Positions 7,217 through 12,005 of a stretch of DNA of 37,561 nucleotides are shown piece after piece (positions within the stretch are counted from its first letter, which is position 1; each line of letters begins with the position of its first letter). The position numbers and the translations under genes were made by a program. This DNA comes from Phycisphaerae bacterium (GTDB lineage: Bacteria; Planctomycetota; Phycisphaerae; Phycisphaerales; SM1A02). The stretch lies in NCBI GenBank assembly GCA_016873335.1, contig VGXN01000013.1, positions 1-37,561 on the forward strand. Direction: 5' to 3'. The notes beneath the pieces are model-generated. The model worked only from the letters and a program-made list of their open reading frames with translations, had not been told where the DNA came from and ran no database searches.

Positions 7217-9252
7217 GCCTGTGCTCCTGCCCTTCCTCCCGCTGCGAACCCGCTGCCGACGAAGTCGACAATCTCGAGCAGCGATGCGACGCTCCATGCT
7301 TGCCAAGGACAACCTCCCGGTTCGTGGGGCGGATCGCCGCTGAAGACTTCGCTGACGGATCCAAGTCCACTTTCGCGCAGGTGGTTCAAGAACGGATAGA
7401 TGAAATCGATGATGGATTCGCGATTGCCGCCGACCTGCACGTGTGCGCGGACGGCGAGCACGAACAGCCAAGGCCACACGGTGCCTTGGTGGTACGCGCC
7501 GTCGCGCGTGGCGACATCGCCTCCGTAATGTCCACAGTAGCGGGGATCGCGCGGGACCAGCGTGCGAAGTCCCACGGGTGTCCACAGGCGCGACATGCAG
7601 GTCTCCACCATCGTGCTCACCTGACCGCGCGGCAGAAGCTCATCCAGCACGCAGATCGCGAGCAACTGGTTCGGTCGGACGGAAGCATCGCGTCCTGTGG
7701 TGCCATCCAGCGTGTCGAAACAGCAGGAGGTGTCTTCGTTCCAGAACTTTGTGAACGACTTTCGGGCGCGCTCGAGGTCGGCACTCCACTTGCCGTCTGG
7801 TGCGTTCGCATGAGGAGCGAGGTCGGACATTGCCGCGAGTGCGCCGCACCAGAGCGCGTTCACCTCGACCGCCTTGCCGTCGCGTGGCGTGATCGGTCGC
7901 GTGCCGACGCGCGCATCCATCCAGGTCAGCTGTGTTGTCGCATCGCCACCGCGCACAAGTCCATCCGCAGGATCGACGCCGATCCCGTGCAGCGTGCCGC
8001 TTCGGTAGCCCTCGATCACCGCGACAAGGGCGGGCCAGAGCGATCGCAGCCACGCCTCATCCTTCGTGCGCTCGAAGACGCGGCGGGCCATCACCACAAG
8101 CAACAGCGGCGCATCAATGCTGTTGCGTTCCACCTGTTCATCGACACGATCGGGAAAGCGGTTGGGCAGCAAGCCTCCCTCGACCCAGTCGGCAAGCGTG
8201 GACAGGACATCCTTCGCTTCGGCGTGGCGACTCGTGGCGAGCAGCAATCCGTGGACGGACAGCAGCGCGTCGCGGCTCCAATCGGCGAACCAGGGATATC
8301 CCGCAATGATCGAGCAGCCCATGCGTGTGCCGTCGCGGCGTTTGCGGCGGACGATGAACTGATCCGCGGCGCACACAAGCTGTTCGAGCGCGGGGGCTCT
8401 CTCTGGGCACTTCGCCTGCAGAAGCAGCGCATCGATGCGCGCGCGTTCGGCTTCCAAGACCATGCTGCCCGAACGCGACTCCTGCAGTGCCGTCGATGCG
8501 GTCAGCACCACCGAGGTGCCCGGATTGAGGACGACATCGAATCGGACCGCGTTCCAGAGTTGATCTTCAAAGTCGTAGCCGCGCGACTGCTCCTCGGTCA
8601 GCAGCATGCGGGTCCACCAGGTCCCGACAGGTGTCGGCACGGAACGGTCGCACTGAAGGAAGAGGTCCAGCGGTCCGCTGCCGACGCCCAGCGGCCAGCG
8701 GAGGCGCACGCCGCGCTCGATCCTCTCGATCGTGGGAGTTGGTGCGCCCACCCGCCCAAGCGCGTGATGATTGCGGCAATCAACGAGCATGTCGAAGGAG
8801 AGTTGCACGGGACTCGAGGACTGCACGACGCTCCAGATCTGGCAAAGCGTGTCTTCGCCATGCACCATCACGATGCGGCGCTCGAGGAGCGCATCACGCA
8901 GCGACCAGCGCCATGTGGGGACTGATCCGTCGAGGAGAAAGCGCTGGAGCCAAAGGTGTCCACGCGGATTGACCGTGCCATCTGTCCAGCGCGCGGTGGA
9001 GAGTTGGTACGTGCCGTTGCGGTAGTGCGCCGTCGGCACCGCAGCGCCAAGCAGCATGGTGCGGACCGCTGGCGCCTGCGTCGCCACGATGAAATCACCG
9101 TGGTACCGACGGTTGCGTGCCCCAGCGATGGTGCCGCACGCGTAGCTGCCGAGCCCATTCGTGACAAGCCACTCCTGCCGCAGTGCCTGATCACTGTTGC
9201 AAACGCCGCGACCAAAGTCAACGACGCGGAGGTGATGGTTGTCATGTCGCAT
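7213..9252 (-). CDS. Glycogen debranching enzyme (amylo-alpha-1,6-glucosidase, GDE type)
   Basis: 679 aa, with the two-domain layout of archaeal/bacterial GDE (GDE_N_bis plus GDE_C, GH133-like). Family signatures are visible: NGLGSYACGTIAGARNRRYH (32-51), GYPWFADWSRDALLS (about 317-331), TTQLTWMDARVG (about 440) followed by PRDGKAVEVNALW, then GAYHQGTVWPW and DPPHEPGGCPWQAW near the end. The enzyme hydrolyses alpha-1,6 branch points in glycogen; it is cytoplasmic. It begins 6 bp after the prfB stop without a Shine-Dalgarno sequence, so translation probably depends on ribosomes finishing prfB. Its own stop overlaps the glucosidase start. Together with the next gene it suggests glycogen recycling. 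Confidence 0.92.
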   Translation of the reverse strand: MRHDNHHLRVVDFGRGVCNSDQALRQEWLVTNGLGSYACGTIAGARNRRYHGDFIVATQAPAVRTMLLGAAVPTAHYRNGTYQLSTARWTDGTVNPRGHLWLQRFLLDGSVPTWRWSLRDALLERRIVMVHGEDTLCQIWSVVQSSSPVQLSFDMLVDCRNHHALGRVGAPTPTIERIERGVRLRWPLGVGSGPLDLFLQCDRSVPTPVGTWWTRMLLTEEQSRGYDFEDQLWNAVRFDVVLNPGTSVVLTASTALQESRSGSMVLEAERARIDALLLQAKCPERAPALEQLVCAADQFIVRRKRRDGTRMGCSIIAGYPWFADWSRDALLSVHGLLLATSRHAEAKDVLSTLADWVEGGLLPNRFPDRVDEQVERNSIDAPLLLVVMARRVFERTKDEAWLRSLWPALVAVIEGYRSGTLHGIGVDPADGLVRGGDATTQLTWMDARVGTRPITPRDGKAVEVNALWCGALAAMSDLAPHANAPDGKWSADLERARKSFTKFWNEDTSCCFDTLDGTTGRDASVRPNQLLAICVLDELLPRGQVSTMVETCMSRLWTPVGLRTLVPRDPRYCGHYGGDVATRDGAYHQGTVWPWLFVLAVRAHVQVGGNRESIIDFIYPFLNHLRESGLGSVSEVFSGDPPHEPGGCPWQAWSVASLLEIVDFVGSGFAAGGRAGAQA

Positions 9253-9258
9253 GGTGAA

Positions 9259-10384
9259 TCAGCCCGTGATGGCGATGCCGTCTCGTTCCCGCCGCCGACG
9301 CTTGAGTTCCGCATCGATGAACGCCTCGAGATGCCCATCGAGCACACGCTGCGGGTTGGGCTCCTCGTAGTTTGTGCGGTGGTCCTTCACGCGGTTGTCG
9401 TAGAACACATAGGAACGGATCTGCGTTCCCCAGCCGCGCTCCACCTTGCCGCCCTTCGCAGCCTGAATCTCCGCTTCACGCTTCTCCTGCTCAAGCTGTT
9501 CCAGTTTGGACATGAGCACGGTCAACGCCTGCTTTCGATTCTGCAACTGATCGCGGTAGGTGCTCGCGACAACCTGAATCCCCGTGGGGATGTGCACGAC
9601 ACGGATCGCCGACGCGACCTTGTTGACGTTCTGCCCGCCCGGTCCGCTCGCACGAACGAACGCGGTCACTTCCATGTCGCGCTCGGGGATCTGCAGATCT
9701 GTCTCCTCGAACTCGGGCGTGACATCGACCGTGGCGAAGGATGTCTGGCGCTTGCCTTCCGCGTTGAATGGAGAGACTCGCGCAAGTCGGTGTGATCCCG
9801 CTTCGCAGGAGTTGTAGCCGTAGGCGAAGGGGCCGCGCACGGCATACGTCGCTTCCGCGATCCCCGTCTCTGTGCCATAGGTTCGACTGAGTTCTTCCAC
9901 CTTGAACCCCATGGTGTTCCACCAGTAGAGGTACATGCGCTCCAGCATCTCCGCCCAGTCGTTTGCCTCCGTACCGCCGACGCCCGCCTGAATCGCGAAG
10001 AAGCAGTGGCGGTGGTCATGCTTGTCGGAGAGCAACGATTGCCGCTCGCAGCGCTCCATCTGTTGCACGAGCGAGTGAAGCGACTCATCCGTCTCCTTCA
10101 GAAGATCAGCATCGTTTGACTCGCGGGCAAGATCGAGTCCAACTTGCGCATCCTGCAAGCCCTTCTCAATCTCGAGGACGGGATCGATGGTGGCGCGAAG
10201 CGTCTTCAGTTCTGCGATGGACTTCTGCGCCTCCCTCTGGTCATCCCAGAATCCCGTCTCGCCCATGCGCGCCTCAAGCCGATCCTTGTGCGAAATCTTG
10301 TCAGGCCAGTTAAAGAGAGTCGCGGATGGCGATGATCCGCGCCGAAAGATCGTTGATGACGGGCTGATGGCTCTCGAAGTGCAT
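9259..10384 (-). CDS. prfB: Peptide chain release factor 2, expressed by +1 frameshift
   Basis: RF2 reads UGA and UAA stop codons and releases the peptide. Codons 1-24 run from ATG 10384 to CTT (10315-10313) in frame zero, giving MHFESHQPVINDLSARIIAI then RDSL, and end at an in-frame TAA (10312-10310). Skipping one base continues with NWPDKISHKDRLEARMGETG and on to the TGA at 9261-9259, total 374 aa. The shift at codon 25 matches the E. coli site at codon 26. The SPF stop-recognition motif (VSPFNAEGKRQTSF) and the catalytic GGQ at about residues 249-251 are present. The shift stop is TAA, not the usual TGA, and no SD-like sequence precedes it. A shorter product from ATG 10266, which has GAGG upstream, is an alternative. 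It heads the debranching enzyme operon and diverges from lysS. Confidence 0.9.
10309..10315 (-). promoter_or_regulatory. prfB +1 frameshift site CTT TAA C
   Basis: Heptamer CTTTAAC at codons 24-25 of prfB. The P-site Leu codon CTT can slip to TTT, leaving AAC as the next codon. The C after the stop keeps the weak termination context of classical sites. Two differences from the known E. coli-type element (AGGGGG, 3 nt, CUU UGA C) are seen: TAA replaces TGA, and the preceding ATCCGCGACTCT contains no Shine-Dalgarno-like stimulator. Confidence 0.85.
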
Positions 10385-10390
10385 GTGTGG

Positions 10391-10420
10391 AATCTACTCG
10401 CGCGCGCAGCGATGCGTCAG
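10391..10420 (-). promoter_or_regulatory. Putative prfB promoter
   Basis: On the minus strand CTGACG (10420-10415), an 18-bp spacer and TAGATT (10396-10391) resemble a sigma70-type promoter. The -10 box ends exactly 6 bp before ATG 10384, which would place the transcript start at or next to the start codon. No Shine-Dalgarno sequence precedes the ATG, in keeping with a leaderless transcript. Inferred from sequence only. Confidence 0.45.
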
Positions 10421-10423
10421 GCG

Positions 10424-10429
10424 TATATT
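10424..10429 (+). promoter_or_regulatory. Putative lysS -10 box
   Basis: TATATT lies exactly 6 bp upstream of ATG 10436, mirroring the prfB side. No recognisable -35 box is found 16-18 bp upstream, where the sequence is CG-repeat rich. Transcription would begin at about the ATG, giving a leaderless lysS mRNA. Confidence 0.4.
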
Positions 10430-10435
10430 CGGGCG

Positions 10436-12005
<1,570 letters not shown>

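Follow-up and report, generated by a model that had tools for sequence, protein, structure and literature searches.

The prfB gene of the planctomycete DNA analysed here encodes release factor 2 (RF2) in two reading frames, and the +1 frameshift needed to join them is probably stimulated by a 7-bp mRNA hairpin instead of the pairing between a Shine-Dalgarno (SD) element and the anti-SD of the ribosome. Judged from comparative sequence data, we put the probability of this reading at about 0.77. The presence of a hairpin in place of the SD element is the main anomaly of the locus, and was overlooked by the first-pass annotation. The window, meaning the whole stretch of 37,561 nucleotides, is contig 13 of a draft genome of 1,996,029 bases in 228 contigs, about 90% complete.

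Organization of prfB

The gene lies on the minus strand. Its ATG (10384-10382) opens 24 sense codons, MHFESHQPVINDLSARIIAIRDSL, which are followed by TAA, and a +1 shift gives access to an open frame of 350 residues from AAC at 10311 to TGA at 9259. Reading of the minus strand thus confirms the first-pass claim that prfB requires a +1 shift after 24 codons, at a TAA within CTTTAAC. The features of the locus are as follows.

10391..10396, minus strand: TAGATT, a -10-like hexamer 6 nt before the ATG (sequence)
10310..10384, minus strand: zero-frame leader ORF of prfB, 24 codons and TAA at 10312-10310 (sequence reading)
10335..10341, minus strand: 5' arm of the hairpin, CGCGGAT (predicted fold, covariation)
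10328..10334, minus strand: 7-nt loop of the hairpin (predicted fold)
10321..10327, minus strand: ATCCGCG, 3' arm of the hairpin, near the position of the SD in other bacteria (predicted fold, alignment)
10316..10320, minus strand: 5-nt spacer ACTCT between stem and CTT (alignment anchored at CTT)
10309..10315, minus strand: shift heptamer CTT TAA C, with CTT at 10315-10313, TAA at 10312-10310 and C at 10309 (sequence, family comparison)
9259..10311, minus strand: +1 frame encoding RF2, 350 codons and TGA (translation, TIGR00020)

RF2 is split over the two frames, and its complete synthesis requires the +1 shift. The +1 frame read from 10383 scores 388 bits against the NCBIfam model TIGR00020 (cut-off 370), and the product contains the tripeptide SPF, which we take to be that of RF2. 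The shift site carries the slippery CTTT, and CTT is present in all 108 frameshift sites of the family; the premature stop, TAA, is one that RF2 can read, and C follows it directly. The arrangement is that of the Escherichia coli prfB cassette in having a stop after about 25 codons within CTT-TRA-C, a +1 shift, RF2 in the new frame and C after the stop. It differs from that cassette in lacking AGGGGG three nucleotides before CTT, in having a hairpin about there, and in using UAA rather than UGA.

Divergently from prfB, lysS lies on the plus strand with a probable start at 10412 or 10436, leaving a gap of about 30-50 nt (10384-10436); in E. coli, prfB and lysS form one operon. Two contigs of the metagenome assembly JAJTGZ01 (L188 and L194) both carry the prfB pattern, representing either a second copy or a mixed bin.

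Absence of an internal Shine-Dalgarno element

E. coli-type sites carry AGGGGG three nucleotides before CTT, and a survey of 12,753 genomes describes the SD element as almost universally conserved where the prfB frameshift exists (PMC12421855). The corresponding segment of the window, ATCCGCGACTCT, contains no SD-like element. The same holds throughout the window's order: an AGGGGG-like element about 3 nt before CTT is found in 0 of 122 sites at a threshold of -4 kcal/mol, and the mean anti-SD pairing of these sites is -0.18 kcal/mol, against -10.7 kcal/mol for a reference sequence of E. coli type. Of 15 sites outside the class, 14 pair with the anti-SD at -4 kcal/mol or better. Sixteen such sites exist, and the sixteenth (G293), where the shift site has TGA, 3 of 7 hairpin pairs form and the SD energy is -5.8, likewise pairs; its addition changes no conclusion. 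Loss of the anti-SD itself is ruled out for the family, 87 of whose 151 genomes yielded a 16S 3' end with an anti-SD; the pattern search of the family genomes' 16S ends did not find that of the window's own genome.

The alternative that survives best, and is still unlikely, is that a distant SD drives the shift: GAGG just upstream of the 5' arm would pair with the anti-SD, and the hairpin would only shorten the path to CTT. GAGG does occupy positions -30 to -27 in 104 of the 122 order sites, anti-SD energies of -4 or better occur between -34 and -18 in 108 of them, and the Glu codon preceding the 5' arm is always GAG (94 of 94). The window's own stretch 5' of the stem, however, pairs with the anti-SD poorly (-3.3 kcal/mol), and GAGG is present in only 1 of 10 sequences of its genus and 9 of 44 class sites with the C-G type of stem, where both hairpin and shift site are kept. 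GAG may instead extend the stem by pairing with CTC; this GAG/CTC extension appears in predicted folds and covaries weakly, and we retain it as an option only.

The hairpin and its association with frameshifting

The inverted repeat CGCGGAT-N7-ATCCGCG forms a predicted 7-bp stem with a 7-nt loop that ends 5 nt before CTT and lies between 6 and 26 nt 5' of the shift codon. Predicted fold and covariation place it next to the position of the ribosomal E site upstream of the shift site. The 45-nt window segment has a predicted folding energy of -12.4 kcal/mol (z -2.1); z-scores of single-sequence folding are modest, from -2.5 to -0.1 in eight sequences, and RNAalifold alone recovers five of the seven pairs. 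A known Rfam element was rejected, as a scan of 9200-10700 returned three matches up to an E-value of 1, none of them near the gathering score.

The hairpin arms share columns in an ungapped alignment anchored at CTT, and all 122 order sites tested have 6 or 7 hairpin pairs and no SD. Across 222 shift sites of the class, 188 keep all seven pairs and 209 keep both pairs that join synonymous positions. The 11 measurable loci that have lost the frameshift (9 in family f4 and 2 in f1) present a different picture: none keeps all seven pairs, two keep both synonymous pairs, and most retain the 4 or 5 pairs that the peptide dictates. Both synonymous pairs are thus present in 135 of 137 f1 and f4 shift sites versus 2 of 11 lost loci (Fisher p 4e-11, kinship ignored). 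Family f4 contains both states, the frameshift being lost in 10 of the 39 prfB genes read, and here all seven pairs are found in 25 of 29 shift sites versus 0 of 9 frameshift-lost loci, again with kinship ignored. One genome with a lost frameshift, G444, is unalignable and stands outside the 11. The f4 loci are listed below.

Frameshift-lost prfB loci of f4: L412, L415, L418, L422, L424, L427, L428, L432, L440, L447

These observations bear on the possibility that the repeat serves as a DNA operator, or acts in the mRNA on transcription, initiation or decay rather than on frameshifting. In favour, it is palindromic and lies about 45 nt after a leaderless-looking start. Its set distance from CTT and its decay where the frameshift is lost though the gene remains argue against this explanation, which we rate slightly below that of the distant SD.

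Hairpin and SD together account for nearly all sites: at least one of them, with a minimum of 6 pairs for the hairpin and an energy of -4 kcal/mol or better for the SD, is present at 206 of 210 shift sites. Nine class sites have 5 pairs or fewer, and six of these have an SD. Neither a good hairpin nor an SD is found at four sites in all, three of them in the class, with 4 or 5 pairs each. Families f75, f78 and f83, among others, carry CCCGGAT/ATCCGGG, a stem whose 3' arm includes the weak SD CGGGA. The full stem CCCGGAT/ATCCGGG also occurs outside the class in G229 (L388), and the hairpin is therefore not strictly confined to the class; the other outside-class shift sites read have 1 to 5 pairs. 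In another outside-class genome, G236 (L393), a CGCGC/GCGCG repeat occupies about the hairpin's place and no SD is present.

The class-wide listing comprises 133 genomes, 80 of which were taken from it, some of the others being already in the set. In the phylum, 151 genomes have a match, of which 30 were read at the locus: the window's own, 10 more in the class and 19 outside it. The remaining phylum genomes were covered by an RNA model, among whose matches 19 outside-class loci were read. Among the matches listed, a pattern scan gives at least 119 records, with at least 112 from Planctomycetota (at least 64 of them Phycisphaerales), at least 6 without lineage and at least 1 labelled Leptolyngbya. 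Labels such as Singulisphaera or Leptolyngbya on metagenome assemblies may be wrong.

Covariation and codon choice in the stem

The amino acid sequence A-R-I-x-x-I-R-D dictates five of the seven pairs, and the other two join third codon positions. In the first of these, the third bases of the Ala and Arg codons are paired in 168 of 170 cases, against a shuffled mean of 68% and a maximum of 79% (0 of 2,000 shuffles reach the observed value). The codon pairs are GCG-CGC (110), GCC-CGG (31), GCG-CGT (25), GCA-CGT (1) and GCT-CGG (1), with GCA-CGC and GCT-CGT as the two unpaired cases; GCA/CGT forms occur in G008, G458, G452 and G459. The third-position pair between Arg and Ile/Leu is formed in 95.7% of 188 cases versus 90.4% upon shuffling. 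Both counts draw on 191 loci and weight related sequences equally.

Alignment A1 contains 127 sequences (126 distinct), drawn from 195 class sites by reducing f1 to about one sequence per genus; 94.9% of its cells are paired, versus 19-45% when the arms are slid by 1-3 columns. Its covariation score is 0.230 versus 0.099 for shuffled alignments, with none of 500 shuffles as high; pairs with double changes number two, which does not exceed the shuffles (353 of 500). On the RF2 tree, pair 2 changes at least four times between G-C or G-U and C-G. An independent-pairs test of pair 2 gives 3 to 4 concordant, 0 discordant and 3 to 4 uninformative comparisons, which is not significant (sign test p 0.125-0.25).

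Codon choice within the arms is narrow. Third-base entropy is 0.00-0.29 bits in the arm codons for Ala, the first Arg, the second Ile and Asp and in the preceding GAG, and 0.74-1.49 bits for the loop codons and those farther 5'. The exception within the arms is the second Arg codon, on the 3' side, with 0.76; it alternates between CGC and CGT, both of which pair with G.

An ordinary RF2 frameshift of the known TAA variant, at which CTTTRAC suffices and the repeat is a by-product of ARIxxIRDSL and codon bias, is improbable, more so than the two alternatives above. TAA is reported in 1.4% of motifs (PMC12421855), and the peptide accounts for most of the stem. Covariation nevertheless exceeds that of shuffled controls, and resampling of synonymous codons from f1 RF2 genes with the amino acids fixed produces all seven pairs in only 6.7% of sequences (maximum 13.9%, 300 draws), versus the 89.8% observed in the 108 family sites. 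The two synonymous pairs, together with the choice of residues in A-R-I-x-x-I-R-D, carry the comparative case for an RNA structure.

The premature stop codon

The first-pass annotation presented the TAA stop as the novelty of the locus. We dropped it as the main novelty, as the survey of 12,753 genomes had already found the prfB motif in 8,164 of them with TGA in 98.6%, TAA in 1.4% and TAG in none, the TAA-type motifs occurring in several phyla; its authors consider TAA not broadly fixed in particular clades and argue that a TAA site would go on sensing RF2 levels (PMC12421855). The string 'Planctomycet' is absent from the main text of that paper. The site of the window shares the CTTTAA premature stop with those motifs and differs in its setting, with TAA at 77 of the 149 sites read in a single order and at 24 of 29 in f4. 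By family of the order, the counts are 43 of 108 in f1, 7 of 8 in f2, 3 of 3 in f3, 24 of 29 in f4 and 0 of 1 in f70. Elsewhere in the class TAA is found at 3 of 73 sites, and outside the class at 0 of 15, the sixteenth site (G293) also having TGA.

On an RF2 tree of 85 rows, obtained by a quick search and with 20 forks left open, the stop codon must have changed 15 times or more within the class, which rules out clade-wide fixation of TAA. TAA is present in 8 of 10 sequences of the genus (the window counted in) and at about half of the sites read in the order, where it is common but labile. Loss of the SD as the cause of TAA was considered and rejected: TAA is present at 56 of 146 sites without an SD versus 1 of 64 with one, but this difference is confounded by kinship, and independent pairs give 1.1 for and 0.4 against, which is not significant.

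The nearest relative, G070, whose protein is 98% identical, has an identical CTTTAAC, and this together with the prevalence of TAA in the genus makes a miscalled base at the shift site unlikely. A sequencing error or decayed gene, with RF2 made from the ATG at 10266, is by far the least credible alternative, for even though the draft is in 228 contigs and the ORF from that ATG alone scores 382 bits against TIGR00020 (cut-off 370), 108 of the 110 prfB loci read from the family, out of 133 genomes with a match, preserve the whole arrangement of zero frame, shift site and +1 frame. The gene is intact by sequence, in agreement with the first-pass view that it is unlikely to be dead.

UAA is readable by both RF1 and RF2. 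The window's genome also encodes RF1, with best NCBIfam matches to PRK00591.1 (360 bits) and prfA (358 bits), which fall below the cut-offs of 400 and 423; the protein contains the tripeptide PAT, presumably that of RF1. UAA therefore has two readers here, as the first-pass annotation had supposed, and a loss of RF1 that would make UAA specific to RF2 is ruled out. That competition by RF1 might weaken the feedback at UAA is plausible. UGA dominates stop usage: among the 27 stops of a crude ORF call in the window, 24 are TGA, 3 TAG and 0 TAA, in line with the 35 TGA of 41 stops noted at first pass. A comparison of 14 species found that UGA is used more, relative to UAG, where RF2 has a larger share, and that this share falls with AT bias (PMC4989110); by this analogy, RF2 may still be the dominant reader at UAA in a genome as rich in GC and UGA as this one. 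Elsewhere, L005:1480-2352 (contig 12 of G000) encodes a rescue factor resembling ArfB, with a long N-terminal extension, scoring 99 bits against a cut-off of 100.

Initiation of prfB and use of SD pairing

Of 122 order loci, 93 have a TANNNT hexamer ending 5-9 nt upstream of the prfB start codon, and 21 have an SD-like motif. The position of this -10-like hexamer suggests that the prfB mRNA is leaderless. Planctomycetes are described, from one genome, as being among the phyla in which few genes have an SD and initiation tends to be leaderless or S1-based (PMC5397173). We would guess that reliance on SD pairing fell and the hairpin took over.

Proposed mechanism

At known sites, the SD:anti-SD helix adjoins the E site and helps Leu-tRNA to slip on CUU as the stop codon waits (PMC12421855, PMC6321510). 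Huang et al. report that, at CUUUGA, a stable artificial hairpin placed upstream stimulated +1 shifting to about 60% of the level reached with the SD; the effect was seen in cell-free E. coli reactions, and only when RF2 was absent, the hairpin presumably refolding behind the ribosome (PMC6321510). The natural stem resembles that construct in adjoining the E site upstream of an RF2 shift site. The artificial hairpin was a designed GC-rich 12-bp stem assayed by in vitro +1 shifting on 70S ribosomes (PMC6321510), whereas the one described here is a natural, predicted 7-bp stem conserved in evolution. As it sits at about the same place, we infer by analogy that it would act in the same way. Among the open-access papers listed in searches by title and start of abstract, none described a natural upstream hairpin at prfB or dealt with prfB frameshifting in Phycisphaerae.

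Once CTT occupies the P site and the stop codon the A site, the 7-bp hairpin would refold behind the ribosome, and its duplex would abut the latter roughly where the SD:anti-SD helix lies at known sites. There it may strain or free the contacts between E site and P site, and Leu-tRNA would slip from CUU to UUU while the stop codon awaits a release factor. The hairpin is present in most sampled families of Phycisphaerae, in many sister families alongside a weak SD (CGGGA) within the 3' arm, and stands alone in Phycisphaerales, where the SD is lost. The stop flips between UGA and UAA, and a UAA switch would read RF2 and RF1, probably still mainly RF2 since UGA dominates stop usage. A wider reading, to which we give somewhat less than even odds, is that a class-wide cis hairpin replaces pairing with the rRNA and has freed the switch of Phycisphaerales from an RF2-only stop, so that about half of its sites read would sense pooled RF1 and RF2 at UAA.

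RF2 frameshifting is the textbook case of recoding stimulated by an SD. If our main reading is true, the natural hairpin would point to a duplex at the mRNA exit of the ribosome, whatever its partner, as the stimulator, and the hairpin variants across Phycisphaerae would constitute a natural mutant series for testing the stimulator. The TAA sites show that an RF2-specific stop is not indispensable. To lineages that rely little on SD pairing, the hairpin would offer a way of keeping the autoregulation of RF2.
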